DNA of 13,697 nt from JBFLXN01 sp040755715 [NCBI: Candidatus Edwardsbacteria bacterium] (lineage in GTDB: Bacteria; Edwardsbacteria; AC1; JBFLXN01), in NCBI GenBank assembly GCA_040755715.1, contig JBFLXN010000064.1, positions 1-13,697 on the forward strand, given 5' to 3'. The stretch's first letter is position 1. Each line of letters opens with the position of its first letter. Positions 1,129 through 9,496 of this stretch are shown here, piece by piece. The notes beneath the pieces were generated by a model. It did not search any database. It saw only the letters and a list, made by a program, of their open reading frames with translations, and had not been told where the DNA came from. Position numbers and translations under genes: made by a program.

Positions 1129-1289
1129 TCAAAACCCTAACCACGAAAGCACGAAATAAATCAGAAACTTATAGAAATTGATAGAAATTTATTGAAATTT
1201 GTTGTTATTCATTTTCTACAAATTTCCATCAGTTTCTATCAATTTCAACAAATTTCTGTATATTTTTCTGACTTTTGGGGGAACTTGAT
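1129..1289. repeat. rpsJ-rpmG spacer: 41-bp imperfect inverted repeat of phased GAAA tracts
   Basis: Arms 1162-1202 and 1218-1258 pair at 35 of 41 positions around a 15-nt loop. The left arm runs ATAGAAATTG, ATAGAAATTT, ATTGAAATTT, an exact 10-nt rhythm; the right arm carries TTTC at the same spacing. Short A-tracts spaced at one helical turn are expected to bend DNA, and the RNA would fold into a long hairpin. A CCACGAAAGCACGAAA motif (1141-1156) precedes it. There is no U-run, so it is not a canonical terminator. GGGGGA (1277-1282) is the probable rpmG ribosome site. Confidence 0.85.
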
Positions 1290-1439
1290 ATGCGTGAAAT
1301 TATTACTTTAGCCTGCAGCGAATGCAAGAGAAGAAACTATACCACCAGAAAAAATAAGCGGAAACATCCTGATAGACTGGAGTTTAAGAAATTCTGCCCC
1401 TGGTGCCATAAACATACAATGCATAAAGAGACGAGATAA
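1290..1439 (+). CDS. rpmG: 50S ribosomal protein L33
   Basis: The product is 49 aa, the normal length for bacterial L33. It begins [19 protein letters not shown] and has two CxxC knuckles, C9/C12 and C36/C39 (FCPWCHKHT), so it is the zinc-binding type of L33, rich in Lys and Arg for rRNA contact near the exit site. GGGGGA at 1277-1282 lies 7 nt before the ATG. Its place just before tRNA-Trp and secE is the classic order in many bacteria, which supports the call despite the small size. Confidence 0.95.
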
Positions 1440-1451
1440 TATTTCAAATCC

Positions 1452-1505
1452 AAATATCAAAATGTTTAAAAGATTTTTGCATGGCGATTTGTGTTTTTGA
1501 TATTT
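1452..1505. repeat. rpmG-trnW spacer hairpin
   Basis: AAATATCAAAA (1452-1462) is perfectly inverted as TTTTGATATTT (1495-1505), leaving a 32-nt loop. It fills most of the 74-nt gap between rpmG and tRNA-Trp. The stem is entirely AT-rich and no U-run follows, so terminator function is doubtful; a processing signal or repeat remnant is as likely. Confidence 0.65.
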
Positions 1506-1513
1506 TAACAGAT

Positions 1514-1587
1514 AGGTGAGTAGCTCAACTGGCTAGAGCACCGGTCTCCAAAACCGGTGGTTGCGGGTTCAAGTCCTGCCTCACCTG
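1514..1587 (+). tRNA. trnW: tRNA-Trp (anticodon CCA)
   Basis: A 74-nt cloverleaf: acceptor AGGTGAG/CTCACCT, D-stem GCTC/GAGC, anticodon stem CCGGT/ACCGG with loop CTCCAAA (anticodon CCA), T-arm GCGGG-TTCAAGT-CCTGC, discriminator G. The 3' CCA is not encoded. tRNA-Trp between rpmG and secE is a conserved bacterial arrangement and confirms the identity of both neighbours. Confidence 0.98.
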
Positions 1588-1789
1588 CTCTTGAGAATAA
1601 AAATAGCCACTGATTCACGCCCACCTATGCCTAGGTGCGAGGTAAACACGGATAAACATAAAACAGATTCATTTGCTAAAGAAAAAAATGTGATTTATAT
1701 TTAGTGTCTATTCAACGGCGAAATTGATTGAGATAATAGTTCCAGTGAGTTCAGTGTATTCAGTGGCGAAATTGGTAGAGTGAAACGCA
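1588..1789. repeat. tRNA-Trp to secE spacer with repeat fragments and a hairpin
   Basis: This 202-nt gap has no gene. CACCTA-TGCC-TAGGTG (1622-1637) is a perfect 6-bp stem. It splits a phrase of the kind GATTCACG...GTAAACACGGATAAACA that resembles repeat text elsewhere in the window. GGCGAAATTG occurs twice (1717-1726, 1765-1774), and CAGTG/TTCAGTG is repeated at 1743-1765. No clear promoter or strong Shine-Dalgarno for secE is visible. Confidence 0.6.
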
Positions 1790-1972
1790 ATGAAAAGAAT
1801 AATCAATTTCTTTAAAGAAGTGCACCTTGAATTTACCAAAGTCAGTTGGCCACGCCGCGACGAGCTCTTTCAATCAACGATTGTAGTGATTGTCCTTTCT
1901 TTATTGGTCGCCCTTTTTATTGGAATTGTAGATATTACCCTTTCTAAACTGATAACCGCAATCTTTGGATAG
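1790..1972 (+). CDS. secE: Preprotein translocase subunit SecE
   Basis: A 60-aa protein of the short, single-span bacterial SecE type. An amphipathic N-terminal helix (MKRIINFFKEVHLEFTKVSW) leads to the conserved WPRRDEL hinge, then one membrane segment at about residues 29-52 (STIVVIVLSLLVALFIGIVD). SecE clamps the two halves of SecY in the SecYEG channel in the inner membrane. Only 6 nt separate its stop from nusG, implying translational coupling. The ribosome site is weak (GAGTGAA about 7 nt upstream). Confidence 0.96.
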   Translation: MKRIINFFKEVHLEFTKVSWPRRDELFQSTIVVIVLSLLVALFIGIVDITLSKLITAIFG

Positions 1973-1978
1973 AAACCT

Positions 1979-2506
1979 ATGGCAATGAAATGGTATGTTA
2001 TTCGCACCTATGCAGGGTGCGAAGAGAAGGTAAAAAATTCTATAGAACACACGGTTAAAACTAAAAGTCTGCAGGAAAAATTCGGTAAGATAATCATTCC
2101 GACTGAGGATATAACCGTGATTAAAAAAGGCAAACGAGGAAAAGTGACCAAGCAACTTTTTCCGACTTATATCTTGATTGAAATAGAACCTACCGATGAG
2201 ATCTGGCAAGTGGTTGCTACTACTCCGGGAGTGATGCCACTTTTAGGCACCAAAAAACAACCACAACCACTTAGAGGAACTGAAGTAGAACAAATCTTAT
2301 CCCAAGTTGAAAGAGAAAAACCGTCAGTCTATGCTATTCATTTTAAGAAGGGAGAGAGCGTTAAAATAGTTGACGGACCATTTACTAATTTCGTCGGCAC
2401 TATTGAAGAAATAGATTCTCTCCACGGCAAATTACGAGTGATGGTGACTATCTTTGGTAGAGCTACACCAATAGAACTTGATTTCTTACAAGTGAAGGCA
2501 CTGTAG
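1979..2506 (+). CDS. nusG: Transcription termination/antitermination factor NusG
   Basis: The 175-aa protein has the NGN domain at about residues 4-110 (KWYVIRTYAGCEEKVKNSIE at the start, FPTYILIEIE and PGVMPLLG later) and a C-terminal KOW domain at about 122-175 (KKGESVKIVDGPFTNFVGTI). NGN binds the RNA polymerase clamp over the DNA channel and suppresses pausing; KOW contacts Rho or S10, linking polymerase to the ribosome. Length matches the family, with no extra insertion. The start at 1979 lies 6 nt after secE; an internal ATG at 1985 would also fit (MKWYVI). No good Shine-Dalgarno is seen, as expected for coupling to secE. Confidence 0.97.
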   Translation: MAMKWYVIRTYAGCEEKVKNSIEHTVKTKSLQEKFGKIIIPTEDITVIKKGKRGKVTKQLFPTYILIEIEPTDEIWQVVATTPGVMPLLGTKKQPQPLRGTEVEQILSQVEREKPSVYAIHFKKGESVKIVDGPFTNFVGTIEEIDSLHGKLRVMVTIFGRATPIELDFLQVKAL

Positions 2507-2638
2507 CCCCTTTCTCTGAAGTAGGGAACTTCAACGGACAGAAGTTGTTATTGCCGGCATCGTCAAAATTATCGCCTGTCCGCCAACCCGGCATCAGAGT
2601 GAAAGACGGGCTGTAATCATATTAAACGAGAGGAAATA
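2507..2638. repeat. nusG-rplK spacer: nested inverted repeats
   Basis: Outer arms lie at about 2506-2519 (GCCCCTTTCTCTGA) and 2594-2611 (TCAGAGTGAAAGACGGGC), pairing with small gaps. Inside are a 5-bp hairpin GAAGT/ACTTC (2518-2532) and CGGACAG (2535-2541) with its exact complement CTGTCCG (2576-2582). The 132-nt gap is therefore almost wholly foldable. In other bacteria the rplK leader carries the L1 autoregulation site; I could not recognise an L1-binding mimic here. GAGAGGA (2629-2635) is the rplK ribosome site. Confidence 0.7.
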
Positions 2639-3067
2639 ATGGCTAAGAAAGTTGTGGCAATGGTTAAACTGCAGATTCCAGCCGGTCAAGCTACCCCAGC
2701 TCCGCCAGTTGGACCAGCCTTGGGTCAGCATGGTCTAAACATTATGGAATTCTGTAAAGCCTTTAATGCTAAAACACAAGGACAGGAAGGTCTAATCATT
2801 CCAGTAGTCATCTCCATCTATCAGGATAAAACCTTTACCTTTATCACGAAGACCCCACCAGCCGCCACCTTATTAAAGATAGCCGCTGGAATTGCTAAAG
2901 CCTCCGGGGAACCAAATCGCAATAAGATTGGTAAGGTAAAAGCTAGTCAGGTGAAAGAAATTGCTCAAAAAAAGATGCTAGACCTAAATGCTAATACCTT
3001 AGAATCCGCCGTCAGAATGGTGGAAGGGACTGCCAGAAGTATGGGAATTGAAATCACACCTGACTAA
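2639..3067 (+). CDS. rplK: 50S ribosomal protein L11
   Basis: The 142-aa product matches the family length. The N-terminal domain has the proline-rich helix region [20 protein letters not shown] (about residues 16-35), the part bound by thiostrepton-type drugs together with 23S helices 43-44, and the C-terminal domain contains the rRNA-binding stretch ending [15 protein letters not shown]11 forms the base of the stalk where EF-G and EF-Tu act. The 399-nt gap to rplA is unusual, because these two genes are normally only a few bases apart. Confidence 0.98.
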
Positions 3068-3466
3068 CGAATACGCAGAAAGCACAGAATACTCGCAGAT
3101 TACACAGAAAATTCACAGAGACCACAGATTCTCCGCGAAATTTGTGCACGACTTTGTTAAAATTTTGTCTAAAATTGGCACGATTTATCCTGAACGGAGT
3201 GAAGGAAAATCAACACTGACAAGCGTTTAAGCCTTCTGGGCTTGTTCTTCTCTTGTCCCGAACGAAGTTCGGGAAGAAAGACAGCCCAAGCCCCGATAAA
3301 TCGGGGCTTCAGGGCATCCTCAAAAGCACAAGAAAAGTGCCTCAGAGGCTTATATTATTGTGCCAGAAGGCTTCCAGGCAGATTTTGAGCCAAAATTTAA
3401 CAAAGCACTGTTTGTGTTTCGTAATTTGTGTATTCTCTGCGTAATCTGCGAATTAAGAGGAGTAAT
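3068..3466. repeat. rplK-rplA spacer: 399-nt nested inverted-repeat block
   Basis: There is no gene here; short open frames have no family resemblance. TCGCAGATTAC (3093-3103) is inverted exactly at 3441-3451. CTTTGTTAAA (3152-3161) is inverted exactly at 3396-3405, with the match running on to 3167/3391. The two arms therefore enclose an apex of about 220 nt holding further palindromes: TGGGCT/AGCCCA (3237-3242, 3283-3288), TCCCGAACGAAGTTCGGGA (3256-3274), a 10-bp stem with a 2-nt loop at 3288-3309 (core CCCCGATAAATCGGGG), and GCAC/GTGC near 3326-3340. No U-run follows any stem. The block separates two genes that most bacteria cotranscribe with almost no gap. AAGAGGAGT (3455-3463) is the rplA ribosome site. 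Confidence 0.85.
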
Positions 3467-4168
3467 ATGAAGTCCAGTAAAAGATATCAGGAAATAAGTA
3501 AAAAAATAGAGAAAGAAAAAACCTATAAATTAGAAGAAGGTGCAAAGTTAGTAAAAGAACTTGCCAATGCGCGATTTGACGAAACAGTAGAACTGGCAAT
3601 GCATCTCGGCATTGACCCAAAACAATCAGACCAACAGGTAAGAGGAACCGTGTTACTGCCTCATGGGACTGGCAAAAAGGTGCAGGTTTTGGTTTTAGCC
3701 AAAGGCGAAAAAGAAAAAGAAGCCCAGGAGGCTGGTGCTGACTATGTAGGGGCTGATGACTATCTTAAAAAATTGCAAGAAGGCTGGCTGGACATAGATG
3801 TTATTATTGCTACACCGGATTTAATGAGTCAAGTCGGTAAACTAGGAAAGATTTTAGGGCCAAAAGGCTTGATGCCGAACCCCAAAACAGGCACCGTTAC
3901 TTTTGATGTCGCCAAGGCGGTGAAAGATGCAAAAGCGGGAAAGATTGAATATAGAGTGGACAAGACCGGGAATATCAATGTGCCTATAGGTAAAGCTTCT
4001 TTTGAAGAAAATAAACTAATAGAAAATACGAGGGTTCTTTTGACTGAAATTGTGCGGGCGAAACCTTCTTCAGCAAAAGGAACCTACATTAAAAGTATTA
4101 CCATTTCATCAACTATGGGACCCGGAATAAAGATTGACCTTTCCGAAGCCAGCAGTAAAACGAAATGA
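3467..4168 (+). CDS. rplA: 50S ribosomal protein L1
   Basis: A 233-aa product, the usual L1 length. Hallmarks are [20 protein letters not shown] (about residues 56-75), [20 protein letters not shown], the signature [15 protein letters not shown], and a C-terminal half [12 protein letters not shown]...[18 protein letters not shown]1 forms the mobile stalk beside the E site and in many bacteria represses its own operon by binding mRNA. I chose ATG 3467 because AAGAGGAGT precedes it by 3 nt and the protein then begins [15 protein letters not shown], like other L1 proteins. An in-frame ATG at 3428 lies in repeat sequence and adds 13 unrelated residues. Confidence 0.97.
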
Positions 4169-4297
4169 AGAAATTTATAGAAATAGATTGAAACTGAGAG
4201 AAATAAATAGAAATCCAATGAGTGCCAACAAATTTCAATAAGTTTCTCTCAGTTTCCATAAATTTTTACCATCATAGTAAACCAGGGAGAAACCAGT
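4169..4297. repeat. rplA-rplJ spacer: phased GAAA/TTTC inverted repeat
   Basis: GAAACTGAGAGAAA (4190-4203) is inverted exactly at 4243-4256, and AAATTTAT (4171-4178) at 4258-4265. The left arm has GAAA every 10 nt from about 4179 to 4213; the right arm has TTTC every 10 nt. It is clearly the same repeat type as at 1162-1258. This gap is where many bacteria keep the L10(L12)4-binding leader that controls rplJ-rplL; no such motif is recognisable, so the repeat either replaced it or took its place. AGGGAGA (4284-4290) is the rplJ ribosome site, 7 nt from the ATG. Confidence 0.85.
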
Positions 4298-4834
4298 ATG
4301 CCTAAATTAGAGAAAGAGAATAAAATTGAAGCATTAACTGTAAAATTCAAAAAGGCGAAAGTCGTTTATCTGACTGACTTTACTGGACTTAATGTAGCGC
4401 AGATTACAGAATTACGAAAGAAAATGCGTCAGGTAGGCATTGATTATCAGGTGACCAAGAATACTTTTGCCTCTCTGGCGGCCAGACAAACTGGATATGA
4501 CCTTTTAGTTAGTTACTTTGACGGTCCAACAGGATTGGTTTTTGGAGTTGAAGACCCAATTATCACGGCGAAAGTGCTCCTTGATTTTATCAAACTATAT
4601 GAAAAACCCAAAATAAAAGCAGGATTTACAGATGGACGGTTGTTATCACCTGAAGAAATAAAAAATCTTTCCACACTTCCTTCTAAGACAGTTCTTCTCT
4701 CTCAAGTGGTGAGTGGACTACAAGCACCATTAGTGAAATTTGTTGGGGTCTTGCAGGGAATTCTTAGAAATTTTCTTTTCACCTTGGAAGAAATAAGAAC
4801 ACATAAAGTGGATAAAGACACAGACAAAATTTAA
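4298..4834 (+). CDS. rplJ: 50S ribosomal protein L10
   Basis: The 178-aa product has the N-terminal rRNA-binding domain (KAKVVYLTDFTGLNVAQITE at about residues 19-38, LRKKMRQVGIDYQVTKNTF after it) and the C-terminal helix that carries L7/L12 dimers (VSGLQAPLVKFVGVLQGILR). L10 anchors the stalk that recruits translation factors. It is somewhat longer than the roughly 165-175 aa common in the family. The last residues THKVDKDTDKI are encoded by ACACATAAAGTGGATAAAGA-type sequence that resembles the repeats in the spacers, so the tail may be repeat-derived. Followed by rplL as expected. Confidence 0.97.
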   Translation: MPKLEKENKIEALTVKFKKAKVVYLTDFTGLNVAQITELRKKMRQVGIDYQVTKNTFASLAARQTGYDLLVSYFDGPTGLVFGVEDPIITAKVLLDFIKLYEKPKIKAGFTDGRLLSPEEIKNLSTLPSKTVLLSQVVSGLQAPLVKFVGVLQGILRNFLFTLEEIRTHKVDKDTDKI

Positions 4835-4931
4835 TATTTAAACTGTGTGTCTCCGTGTTAACCCCGCACCAAATTTTAGTGCGTGGGTTAATCTGTGGTT
4901 TAAAAACTTTTTTAAAGGAGGTTAAGTAAAA
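4835..4931. repeat. rplJ-rplL spacer: repeat with embedded hairpin
   Basis: AGACACAG in the rplJ end (4816-4823) pairs with CTGTGTGTCT (4843-4852), with two extra bases on the right side, so an inverted repeat spans the rplJ stop. A second hairpin, CCCGCAC (4863-4868 region) with GTGCGTGGG (4879-4887), interrupts a phrase reading CCGTGTTAA...TTAATCTGTGG. AAAGGAGG (4914-4921) is a near-perfect Shine-Dalgarno for rplL, the strongest in the window, in keeping with the need for about four L12 copies per ribosome. Confidence 0.7.
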
Positions 4932-5330
4932 ATGACTACTAAGAAATCACCCAAAGAAATCGTCTTAGAGGCGATTGAATCAATGACAGTCTTAGAATTA
5001 GCAGAATTAGTAAAAACACTGGAAGAAAAATTTGGTGTTAAATCAGCCGCTCCAGCTGCGGCCTTTGTTCCTGCTCCAACAGCGGTGGTCCAAGCTCCAG
5101 CCGCGGCCGAGGAGGAAAAGTCAGCCTTTGACGTTATCTTGTTAGCCGCTGGTGATAAAAAACTCCAGGTCATCAAAGAAGTGAGAGTTATCACTAGCTT
5201 GGGCTTGAAAGAAGCCAAAGACCTAGTTGATGGAGCGCCAAAACCTATTAAAGAAGGGCTCCCGAAAGAAGAAGCAGAAAAGATCAAAGCCCAATTAGAA
5301 GCCGCTGGCGCTCAGGTGCAGTTGAAATAA
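4932..5330 (+). CDS. rplL: 50S ribosomal protein L7/L12
   Basis: The 132-aa product has the N-terminal dimerisation helices (about residues 5-36, [20 protein letters not shown]), an Ala/Pro/Val-rich flexible hinge (about 38-62), and the C-terminal factor-binding domain with the signature KIQVIKEVR-like stretch ([20 protein letters not shown]) and [20 protein letters not shown]. It is slightly longer than the E. coli protein (121 aa), the extra length being mainly hinge. The AAAGGAGG site at 4914-4921 indicates strong translation. It is the GTPase-activating stalk protein. Confidence 0.98.
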
Positions 5331-5465
5331 GAGTCCATAGGTTACGGTAACGAGGCTCGTATCGTTGATAGGTCGCGGTTTTTTAAACACATAACCGTAG
5401 CCTTTAGACGAAACGAGCCTCGTAACCATCAAACCGTCACCGTTATCGTTTAGAGGAGTCTCAAA
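5331..5465. repeat. rplL-rpoB spacer: 27-bp inverted repeat
   Basis: Arms 5346-5372 and 5401-5427 pair at 22 of 27 positions, with a 28-nt loop rich in T then A. The core ACGAGGCTCGT is itself a near-palindrome and recurs after rpoB (9260-9270). In E. coli this gap contains an attenuator and an RNase III site, so a hairpin here could tune the rpoB/ribosomal protein ratio; that is inference from position. The ribosome site for rpoB is GAGGAG (5453-5458). Confidence 0.85.
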
Positions 5466-8400
5466 GTGGGACAAAATAAACGCAAGAATTATTCCAAAAT
5501 TAATGTCATCGTTCCTTTGCCTTCTCTCTTGGAGAGTCAATTAAAGTCTTTTAAGGAGTTTCTCCAAGAAGAGGTATCGCCAGAGAAGCGCAAGGAAGTG
5601 GGATTACAAGAAGTCTTTAAAGAAATCTTTCCTATTGAAGACCCACAAGGACACTATTCGTTGGAATTTCTCTCTTTTTATTTGCAAAAACCAAAATATA
5701 CTAAAGAGGAATGTTTGGCTCAGGATATAACCTACGCTGCCGCCCTGCGAGCTATTCTTAGATTGGTAATTAGAGAGGAAGGTAAACCGAGAGAAGTAGT
5801 GGAAAACGATGTCTATTTGGGAGATATTCCACTGATGACCGAAACGGGCAGTTTTATCATCAACGGTGCTGAACGGGTAGTAGTAAGTCAATTACATCGC
5901 TCACCAGGTGTCTTTTTTGATGAAGAATTTCTACCCGGTGGTAGAAGAATTTATTCAGCTGAAATTATTCCCTATCGTGGTTCGTGGGTGAAATTCATTA
6001 TTGACCGGGATGAAACTCTGTCTGTTTCAATTGACCGTAGGAGGAAATTCCCTGCTACACTCCTTTTGCGAGCTTTAGGTTATATCAATGATTCTCAATT
6101 GTTACAACAATTTTATCCCACTATAGAAGTGAAGCTTAAAGAAGGAGTTGAGGAGAAAATAGTGGGTAAAATTTTAGCTGAAGAAGTTAAACATCCCCAG
6201 ACCCAAGAAATCCTCGGTGGAGCCGGAACAGAGATTACTCAAGGGATGTTGACCAATTGGCGAGTCAGTGGGATAAACAAAATAAAAATACTGGATATTG
6301 ATTCAGTCAAGGAACCGTGTGTGATTTCCAAAACCATTGCTACAGAAGGAATGATGAAGACTCAAGAAGAAGCTTTGAGCAGAATTTACCATCTACTTCA
6401 TCCTGGTGAAATTCTGCCTCCTTTTGAAATAGCCAGAGCCTTTTTTCAAAGACTCTTTTTTGATAAAAAACGCTATGACCTAAAAAGAGTAGGCAGATAT
6501 CAAATGAATCTCAGACTAAAGATGGAAGAACCGCTGACTATCATAACTTTGACAGAAAAAGATTTCATCGTAGTTATAAAACATCTTTTGGATTTACGGA
6601 ATGGTAAGATTGAACCAGATGATATTGACCACTTAGGTAATCGTCGCATCTTGACAGTTGGAGAGCTCCTAGCCAATCAATTTTCAGTGGCTTTGTCCAG
6701 AATGGCCAGAGTGGTGAGAGAAAGAATGGTGACGCAAGATCACAGTCAACCGCTTACTCCTCAGGAACTGGTAAATTCAAGAATTATTACTTCAGTAATT
6801 AACACCTTCTTCGGTTCAAGCCAACTCAGCCAATTTCTTGACCAACCAAATCCCTTGGCTGACTTGCGACATAAGCGTCGGCTTTCTGCTCTGGGACCAG
6901 GAGGATTGACCAGAGAAAGGGCCGGTTTTGAAGTGCGAGATGTTCACTATACCCATTATGGCAGAATCTGCCCCATTGAGACACCAGAAGGTCCCAATAT
7001 CGGACTAATTTCTTCGTTAGCCAGTTATGCCAGAATAAATGAAATGGGTTTCATAGAGACACCTTATCGGAAAGTAAAAGACAGAAGAGTTCTTGAAGAA
7101 ATCAAATATCTTTCCGCCCAAGAAGAAGATTTGTTCACCATTGCTCAGGCGAACACCCCTATTGATGAAACAGGGAATTTCGTTAAGGAAAACATCCTTT
7201 GTCGCCGCCGCGGAGACTTTCCAAATGTTTCACCGAAAGAAGTTCATTATGTGGATGTTTCGCCTGTCCAAATGGTCAGCCTTTCCGCCAGTTTGATTCC
7301 ATTTTTAGAACATAATGATGCTAACCGGGCTTTGATGGGCTCAAATATGCAGTGCCAAGCAGTGCCATTATTGAAACCAGAAGCTCCTGTTGTCGGCACT
7401 GGCATGGAAGAAAAAATTGCCGTGGATTCCGGAGTAATGATTTTGGCCAGAAGAGAAGGTATGGTGGAAAAACTCACCGGTGACATGATTTTGGTTAGAC
7501 CAACAAAGCCTGACAAAGACGAAGAGGATTTTTTGGGTGAAAATCAATTTGACTGCTATTCTTTGATAAGATTTCGCCGCTCAAATCAGGATACCTGTAT
7601 TCATCAAAGACCACTGGTCAGAGAAGGCGAGCTGGTTAAGAAGGGACAGGTGCTCGCCGATGGTCCGGCTACCGAGAGTGGCGAATTGGCTCTAGGAGTT
7701 AACGTTCTGGTAGCTTTCTTGCCGTGGCTGGGATATAATTTTGAAGATGCCATTGTCGTTAGTGAAAAAATGGTGAAAGGAGACCGCTTTACCTCTATTC
7801 ACATTGAGACATTTGAATGTGTGGTTAGAGAAACCAAAAGGGGACCGGAAGAAATTACCAGAGAGATTCCTAATGTTGGCGAAGAAGCCTTGAAAAATCT
7901 TGATGAAAACGGCATCATCCACCTCGGCGCCAGAGTAGAACCTGGAGATATTTTGGTAGGTAAAGTTTCACCTAAGGGTGAAACCGAATTGACACCCGAA
8001 ATGAGACTTTTGCGGGCTATCTTTGGGGAAAGAGCAGAGGATGTCAAAGACACTTCACTTCGTGCTCCCTCAGGAATGGAAGGTATTGTAATTGATGTCA
8101 AGGTCTTCTCCAGGAGGAGTCAGGATCGCCTGGTAATTCAGGAACAAAAGAAGAGAATGGAAATATTGAAAAAAGAGGCAGATAAGAAAATCTTTAAAAT
8201 TCGTCAAGAAAGGAATAGAAGAATTCAGGAAATCCTAAAAGGAGAAATTGCTGGAGAAACGATTAGGAAAGGCGAAAGAATTCTGATGCGCAAAGGACAG
8301 AAATTTACTCCCGAAATCTTAGATTCACTCAACTTTGAAGAGCTTGAATTGGAAGAAGAATTTGTTGAAGACAGAGCCAAGACAAAGAGAATCATCAAAA

Positions 8401-9230
8401 TAATGGAAGCCGCCAAAGCCGCTATTAAGGAAGTAAAACTAGAATTAGAAATGGAAAATACAAAGATTGAAGGAGGCGACGGGTTGCCACCCGATGTGCT
8501 TAAAATGATTAAAGTCTTTATTGCCAGAAAGCGCCATCTGATGGTTGGTGACAAATTGGCCGGTAGACACGGAAATAAAGGTGTGGTGGCTAAGATTGTG
8601 CCGGAAGAGGATATGCCCTACCTCGCTGATGGAACTCCAGTGGACATTGTTTTAAATCCCTTGGGGGTGCCCTCAAGAATGAATGTGGGACAAATCTTGG
8701 AAACCCACTTGGGTTGGGCGGCAAAAATTTTAGGGATGAAAGTCGCTTCGCCAGTCTTTGACGGCGCCACTTTGCCAGAAATCAAAGAAGAGATGAAAAA
8801 GGCTGATATCCCCGAAGATGGGAAGGTTGTTCTCTATGATGGTATAACCGGTGAGCCATTTGATGAGGAGGTAACCGTAGGTTATATGTATATAATGAAG
8901 CTCTCTCATTTGGTAGACGATAAAATTCATGCCCGCTCCATTGGTCCTTATTCATTGGTTACTCAACAACCATTGGGAGGAAAGGCTCATTTTGGTGGAC
9001 AGCGCTTTGGCGAAATGGAGGTTTGGACTTTGGAAGCTTACGGTGCCGCTCATACCTTGCAGGAAATTTTGACAGTAAAATCAGATGATGTGGAAGGGAG
9101 ACAACGGGTTTACGAAGCTATTGTAAAAGGCGAAAATTTACCAGAACCAGGTACGCCAGCTTCATTTAATGTGATGGTTAAAGAATTACAAGGCCTTTGC
9201 TTAGATGTGCAGTTAGAGAAGGAATCGTAG
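5466..9230 (+). CDS. rpoB: DNA-directed RNA polymerase subunit beta
   Basis: A complete 1254-aa beta subunit. The GTG start is 7 nt after GAGGAG, and the N-terminus ([20 protein letters not shown]) fits the family. The rifampicin pocket lies at about 448-480 ([13 protein letters not shown], then [12 protein letters not shown]), retaining the equivalents of E. coli D516 (D459), H526 (H469) and S531 (S474). [11 protein letters not shown] begins at 505. The catalytic-cleft sequence [12 protein letters not shown] is at 1028-1039, with lysines 1030 and 1038. Between about 885 and 1000 is a charged, helical, coiled-coil-like insertion (many E/K/R), in the place of E. coli dispensable region 2. The C-terminus carries the clamp-anchoring [20 protein letters not shown]. 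No truncation or frameshift. It pairs with rpoC immediately downstream. Confidence 0.99.
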
Positions 9231-9496
9231 ATAAAAGGTTAGGTTATGGGCGAAAGGTTACGAGGCTCGTATCGTCAAAAAGATTGTCAATCGGTTAGGG
9301 TAACGAAGCCCGTATCGTCAATCTTGAGAAAGTTTGCACAGTTTTTTGGGTTTACATAGTTTCTTGGGTTACAAAACTCAAGAAACTCAATGAACTCAAT
9401 AAACCCAATAAACTTATTGACCGAAAGGAGTATCATAACCATAGCCCTTAACCGTAACCCATTACCATTTCCCTTTTATGAGAGGTGAGCGATAAA
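9231..9496. repeat. rpoB-rpoC spacer: direct repeats and a long hairpin
   Basis: Two direct copies of a 23-nt motif (9256-9278 and 9299-9321, 20 of 23 identical) contain CGTATCGTCAA and match the spacer before rpoB. Further on, GTTTCTTGGGTT (9359-9370) pairs with AACTCAAGAAAC (9375-9386) across a 4-nt loop (11 of 12), and GTTTTTTGGGTTTA (9341-9354) pairs with TAAACCCAATAAAC (9400-9413; 13 of 14), giving one 73-nt stem-loop. The rpoB-rpoC gap is usually tens of bases. GAGGTGA (9482-9488) closely matches the 16S anti-Shine-Dalgarno complement and sets the rpoC start. Confidence 0.85.

Follow-up and report, generated by a model that had tools for sequence, protein, structure and literature searches.

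Contig JBFLXN010000064.1 (13,697 nt; this whole stretch is called the window) carries the first part of an operon for ribosomal proteins and RNA polymerase, and long palindromes lie between its genes. These are probably members of several families of palindromic DNA repeat that are dispersed through intergenic space, partly nested in one another, and not dedicated RNA switches. The gene order was established with NCBIfam and ARAGORN as trnF-trnT-rpsJ-rpmG-trnW-secE-nusG-rplK-rplA-rplJ-rplL-rpoB (trnF, trnT and trnW being tRNA-Phe, tRNA-Thr and tRNA-Trp), and rpoC is the frame of 1347 amino acids downstream of rpoB, which as a tblastn query was matched in relatives at 54-61%.

According to the model that we favour, the families would comprise an element with the word GGTWACGARGCYCGTATCGT (family 1) and palindromes whose arms consist of tandem 9- or 10-nt words. 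They would spread inside the genome at the DNA level, and their copies would settle in the gaps between co-directional genes, filling the space from the stop codon to the region of the next start; a palindrome landing in the loop of another would give a nested structure. One would expect the repeats to be transcribed and their copies in the mRNA to fold. Pairing would not be what keeps them, since the stem mismatches show no strand asymmetry and relatives have either nothing or other words at the corresponding junctions.

Palindromes in the operon gaps

The original prediction held that nearly every spacer between protein genes is a nested inverted repeat, named eight such gaps, and suggested checking this against shuffled sequences. 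The folding of each gap was compared with that of 200 dinucleotide shuffles, and the z value and the number of shuffles at least as stable were recorded. Five of the eight gaps were more stable than all 200 shuffles: rpsJ-rpmG (z -7.0), rplK-rplA (z -7.0), rplA-rplJ (z -5.0), rplL-rpoB (z -6.5) and rpoB-rpoC (z -7.3). The rplJ-rplL gap was moderate (z -2.6, 3/200), whereas folding was ordinary in rpmG-trnW (z +0.4, 123/200) and nusG-rplK (z -1.0, 37/200), so that "nearly every" is an overstatement. Beyond the eight, the trnT-rpsJ gap gave z -2.2 (4/200) and the trnW-secE gap z -0.3 (65/200), and the secE-nusG gap measures only 6 nt. The palindromes are listed below by their positions in the window (a strand is given for half-sites; G numbers denote genomes, L numbers loci).

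686-784: weak palindrome in the trnT-rpsJ gap, with the word CCACGAA; arms 686-697 and 773-784
1162-1258: rpsJ-rpmG palindrome of the decamer family, made of 10-nt units; arms 1162-1202 and 1218-1258; its word is also palindromic in G123 and G004
3093-3451: nested rplK-rplA palindrome; outer arms 3093-3117 and 3427-3451 (CACAGATTA-like)
3152-3175 with 3382-3405 (next), and 3229-3239 with 3363-3373 and 3288-3297 with 3300-3309 (both inner): further pairs of the rplK-rplA palindrome
4178-4268: rplA-rplJ palindrome of the decamer family, made of 10-nt units; arms 4178-4214 and 4232-4268
4862-4886: rplJ-rplL hairpin; arms 4862-4873 and 4875-4886
5346-5427: family-1 palindrome in the rplL-rpoB gap; halves of GGTWACGAWGCYCGTWTCGK at 5346-5365 (+) and 5408-5427 (-)
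9256-9440: family-1 half-sites in the rpoB-rpoC gap at 9256-9275 (+), 9299-9318 (+) and 9421-9440 (-, 3 mismatches), enclosing the nonamer palindrome
9340-9414: palindrome of nonamer units (AACTCAATR) enclosed by the family-1 element of rpoB-rpoC; arms 9340-9370 and 9384-9414; its word is also palindromic in G190

The proposal that arms from different motif families share one architecture was borne out. One common family of tandem 10-nt units (the decamer) builds the arms in both the rpsJ-rpmG and the rplA-rplJ gap, 9-nt-like units with a weak period (z 2.2) are found in rplK-rplA, and a 20-nt motif, family 1, is common to rplL-rpoB and rpoB-rpoC. The nesting could also be confirmed in two gaps: the outer arm pair of rplK-rplA encloses further pairs, and the family-1 half-sites of rpoB-rpoC surround a second palindrome of 9-nt units.

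As a separate observation, the end of rplJ including its stop codon lies inside a small CACAGA-type palindrome (4810-4864; arms 4810-4826 and 4848-4864), and this repeat may have contributed the last rplJ codons.

Copies in other genomes and turnover at one junction

For RpoB, the best matches spanning nearly the whole protein were Omnitrophota sequences at 55-58%, with higher scores for shorter fragments. Judged from sequence, this phylum would hold the nearest relatives found for the window, whose organism is thus related to, yet well separated from, the searched genomes. Three words of the window were searched in Omnitrophota genomes with mismatches allowed, the reversed pattern serving as control. 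Family 1 (GGTWACGARGCYCGTATCGT) had 47 sites in G214, one genome of 1.4 Mb, and 42 sites in G346 (control 0 in both); in the family of G346, 10 of the 37 genomes had matches, and a survey of 384 genomes from the whole phylum gave at least 19 with matches, a lower bound because ambiguity letters were seemingly scored as mismatches there. G190 had 41 sites of the nonamer AACTCAATR (AACTCAATRAACTCAATRAAC) and G111 had 12 (control 0), and in G190 this word forms a palindrome between co-directional genes (L260). Matches to the decamer WGAAATTKAT occurred in 12 of 22 genomes with scattered control hits (8 forward and 8 reverse over the 22), hence for this word the evidence comes from palindromes closely resembling those of the window in G123 and G004, and not from site counts. 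Exact-word counts were nearly all 0 in contig samples of G207 and G190, since an exact expression admits fewer sites than a search with mismatches and the samples cover portions of the two genomes. Carriage by viruses was considered and rejected: the decamer word occurred in one viral contig without a palindrome there, an exact scan of viral contigs gave 0 matches to GGTWACGAGGCTCGTATCGT, and the number of RpoB relatives was 0.

From the regions around the matches 78 distinct family-1 palindromes were extracted, two of them from the window. They span 55-142 nt between the outer half-sites (median 90); 55 lie between co-directional, 9 between convergent and 7 between divergent genes, the arrangement of 7 being undetermined. 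The 55 co-directional copies begin a median of 34 nt past the upstream stop codon and end 38 nt ahead of the downstream start. The genes flanking the family-1 copies, named by reading protein starts, include atpG-atpD and other ordinary operon genes. Unselected contigs were sampled as well (40 contigs, 388 kb, from G207; 20 contigs, 209 kb, from G190), and there, among co-directional gaps no shorter than 30 nt, 35/123 and 20/63, respectively, contained a strong inverted repeat (55/186 together), with many different words; 12 palindrome pairs were nested and 22 stood side by side. The 5 of 10 gaps in the window are not significantly above this rate (p 0.18), the window count including tRNA-adjacent gaps which the other counts exclude.

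At the atpG-atpD junction the content of the gap turns over. In G346 this gap measures 161 nt and is filled by a family-1 copy. Across 14 loci of that genome's family the gap is 0 nt in four, then 4, 25, 37, 47, 133, 139, 161, 163, 208 and 282 nt, that is, 0-47 nt in 8 of the 14 (17 loci were considered, G346 included; three without AtpG upstream were excluded, and L335 and L339, with weak AtpG matches, are maybe paralogues). In G222 the gap (208 nt) is occupied by a palindrome built from ACAATAAAC words, and in G200 (37 nt) by a one-armed GACCAAA array. The search for ACAATAAACAATAAACAAA gave 43 sites in G222 (control 6), while seven other genomes had 0-2 each. For GACCRAAG arrays the site counts were 68 in G200 (control 1) and 67 in G222 (control 19), and six others had 0-1 each. 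At each of the three loci examined, therefore, the junction carries a word with many copies in the same genome (42, 43 and 68 sites in G346, G222 and G200); the comparison of multiplicity covered these three loci.

For the operon of the window itself, the median gaps in 33 Omnitrophota loci are 4 nt for rplA-rplJ, 27 for rplJ-rplL, 66 for rplL-rpoB and 7.5 for rpoB-rpoC, and among the rplL-rpoB gaps of at least 40 nt 6/20 contain strong palindromes with sequences seemingly unlike each other. The original prediction was to count as refuted if related genomes kept the gene order but lacked the pairing. This is what the relatives show, some having no pairing and others palindromes of different sequence, with the limit that these relatives are distant (RpoB about 58% at best across nearly its full length).

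Mismatch symmetry and the likeness of the arms

A G-U mismatch preserves an RNA stem and its mirror image A-C does not, while processes acting on DNA treat both alike. An RNA element under structural selection should consequently show more G-U than A-C when mismatches are counted on the transcribed strand. The G-U:A-C counts were 58:52 in family 1 without the two elements of the window (60:56 in all 78), 10:7 in the window alone, 24:21 in 24 Bacteroidota rpoB-rpoC palindromes, 8:10 in other Bacteroidota periodic palindromes, and 38:34 and 19:19 in the G207 and G190 samples. The pool amounts to 157:143 (52%, interval 47-58%), without the expected preference, and differs from two RNA controls: 99:30 in the stems of 101 tRNAs (p ~2e-6), where the stems were imperfectly assigned, to judge from 256 positions left as other mismatches, and 45:17 in 93 hairpins of terminator type taken from the studied loci (p 0.005). 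Selection for RNA pairing was not seen across this pooled set, although single elements could still differ. Compensatory evolution of the arms was not detected in family 1 either: complementarity within elements was no higher than between elements and even lower, which may be due to mixed half-types. Rfam at E<=1 recognised no ribosomal-protein leader family in the window, the matches being tRNAs and weak unrelated ones, and terminator-like sites were not in excess there (15 against 14.6 expected).

These data bear directly on the first interpretation offered by the original prediction, namely that selection maintains hairpins along the whole operon because they protect, process or partly terminate its transcript and so control each gene separately, a task otherwise left to the classic leaders. 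The strong predicted folding of five gaps, the lack of a recognisable leader, a mild bias in the orientation of family 1 on the sense strand and the enrichment of periodic palindromes in Bacteroidota rpoB-rpoC gaps (see below) are all in its favour. Nevertheless we consider it quite improbable, as G-U and A-C mismatches are equally frequent, the same junctions in relatives lack pairing or carry other words, the family-1 element also stands between many unrelated gene pairs, and the window has no surplus of terminator-like sites. Joint RNA control is thus unsupported; the second proposal of the same prediction, a spacer-specific expanding repeat, comes close to the explanation preferred here.

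In 51 periodic palindromes 108/281 deviations from the unit consensus had an in-register mirror image in the other arm, compared with 28.8% (sd 1.8; 0/500) once the units were shuffled, and in a smaller set 62/165 deviations were mirrored against 31/235 when shifted; the register test is partly biased, because the arms were delimited by matching. Mirrored deviations together with the absence of a G-U bias fit template switching between the arms at the DNA level, a process that has been described for hairpin arms and proposed for RNA hairpins (PMC8794818). One could accordingly think of purely local growth, where each palindrome has arisen in its own gap by slippage of short words and template switching between arms, with no copying between sites, and the one-armed array in G200 is consistent with it. 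This alternative is unlikely: the same words occur at tens of sites within one genome, the 20-nt core of family 1 is common to non-homologous gaps, and the arms of family 1 have no comparable within-element excess of complementarity. Within the dispersed-repeat model, the periodic arms may stay alike through hairpin-templated replication, and we infer that the copies themselves arise by copying of DNA.

Periodic palindromes were also surveyed in 78 Bacteroidota loci, mostly of Chitinophagaceae, where they consist of 7- or 8-nt words that differ between species. They were present in 11/49 rpoB-rpoC gaps and 10/412 other co-directional gaps (one of these ten, in L035, is actually also rpoB-rpoC), in 4/114 convergent and in 2/137 divergent gaps. 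Considering gaps of at least 40 nt, the figures were 11/47 for rpoB-rpoC, 6/37 for rplJ-rplL and 3/26 for rplL-rpoB. The mismatch counts of the rpoB-rpoC palindromes given above were likewise without a sign of RNA selection. In three Bacteroidota loci (L006, L008 and L010) rpoB is not followed by rpoC, since tblastn gave no real match and the downstream frames are different ones, and the two genes appear to be split there.

Several points weigh against dispersed DNA repeats as the explanation. The excess at Bacteroidota rpoB-rpoC means that tolerance of repeats alone does not explain their distribution. The sense-strand orientation of family 1 is mildly biased (28 versus 14, with 13 symmetric; p 0.04), which a symmetric spread at the DNA level would not predict. 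The background of family-1 loci is mostly co-directional, so that a location is claimed and no enrichment. Some reversed-pattern controls were not clean (the nonamer in G207, 134 sites against 84, and GACCRAAG in G222, 67 against 19), and the relatives compared are distant. That the window organism carries many further copies in its own genome is something we infer from these relatives, and no transposase or other machinery of spread was found, Y1_Tnp being the sole family searched.

A more general idea may be put forward tentatively, and we would regard it as possible but doubtful. Periodic palindromes could represent a general intercistronic class of bacteria, whose build (arms of tandem 6-10-nt words, mirrored on the two sides of a loop, in co-directional gaps) is common across phyla and whose words are replaced between species; a self-templating DNA process (slippage and template switching) would make them and keep them mirrored, and copying into further gaps would follow, with the result that a single junction is filled time after time by unrelated words. 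If the repeat explanation holds, many strong predicted intergenic hairpins in such genomes would be repeat copies and not regulators, to be set aside in RNA-structure screens, and the strand symmetry of G-U and A-C mismatches would be a simple filter for them. Because different words replace one another at a single junction, ideas on how long bacterial palindromes arise can be put to the test, and the Bacteroidota rpoB-rpoC excess may help to decide whether a hairpin, whatever its sequence, is still required in some gaps.

Other features of the window and known repeat systems

A putative promoter precedes the tRNA and operon genes:

144-173, + strand: sigma70-like promoter match, TTGACA-18-TATAAT with TG before the second hexamer; 12/12 consensus positions, a consensus match only

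A 117-nt tandem duplication (259-492; copies 99% identical) carries the 5' part of a tRNA with an altered anticodon arm and lies just ahead of the complete tRNA-Phe gene (496-571); the intact genes are the only ones that ARAGORN calls. The contig ends (1-77 and 13599-13675) are 71% complementary over 77 nt, and one might guess that the contig possibly ends in two inverted copies of a mobile element.

No report of such repeats in Omnitrophota was found in an open-licence collection of papers; subscription journals are mostly outside this, so that the repeats may have been published all the same. One comparison is with repetitive extragenic palindromes (REPs), described as dispersed high-copy palindromes of 20-40 bp, mainly between unidirectional or convergent genes, with several families per genome (PMC3733652). 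REPs of the CGTC type have an 8-9 bp stem, GTAG or CGTC stands as an unpaired tag at one end, and in the GTAG type the repeat flanks a RAYT gene. Like these GTAG-/CGTC-tagged elements, the window-type repeats are dispersed, multi-copy and intergenic and fall into several families; unlike them, all 78 family-1 elements exceed 40 nt, and the other families are built of tandem 9-10-nt words. Mobilisation as REP-like elements by a REP-associated tyrosine transposase (RAYT, Y1) would agree with this REP-like location and with the presence of Y1_Tnp genes in 19 of 20 genomes tested. We judge it very unlikely, since the elements are longer than REPs and the family-1 motif (up to 5 mismatches, flanks up to 1.5 kb) stood beside none of 30 Y1_Tnp loci, these being part of a longer match list. 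In G190 a Y1_Tnp gene is flanked by palindromes with GTAGGTGACGTTTAAACGTCACCTAC and similar words (L203, 1340-1371 and 1874-2236), a RAYT-like arrangement with a different repeat.

Miniature inverted-repeat transposable elements (MITEs) are likewise short, non-coding and dispersed and have inverted ends (PMC10969869). A MITE is marked by a target-site duplication and a parent transposon; for the window-type elements no parent transposon was identified, with Y1_Tnp as the only transposase searched.

Short tandemly repeated repetitive (STRR) sequences and heptamer arrays are made of tandem 7-nt units. The arms in the window consist of 10-nt units and a nonamer; 7-nt units do occur among the Bacteroidota and Omnitrophota palindromes. 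Heptanucleotide arrays have been reported in Geobacter (PMC2700814). Direct repeats of the heptamer TAACTGA are known from Beggiatoaceae, Cyanobacteria and Bacteroidetes, and are reported to have no predicted structure, with one inverted case (PMC4679880). The mirrored arms distinguish the window-type elements from these direct repeats, with which they share tandem short words in intergenic position, a patchy occurrence across distant lineages and a location also near ribosomal protein genes (PMC4679880). The P6b stem of the Nostoc tRNA-Leu intron is heptamer-built, both of its sides consisting of short repeat words (PMC4476775). It belongs to a functional intron RNA and uses 7-nt words, whereas the elements described here are free-standing in gaps, with words of 9 or 10 nt inside the window and of 6-10 nt in other places; the two systems have in common that the sides of a stem are composed of short words, and that different words give a similar structure (PMC4476775).

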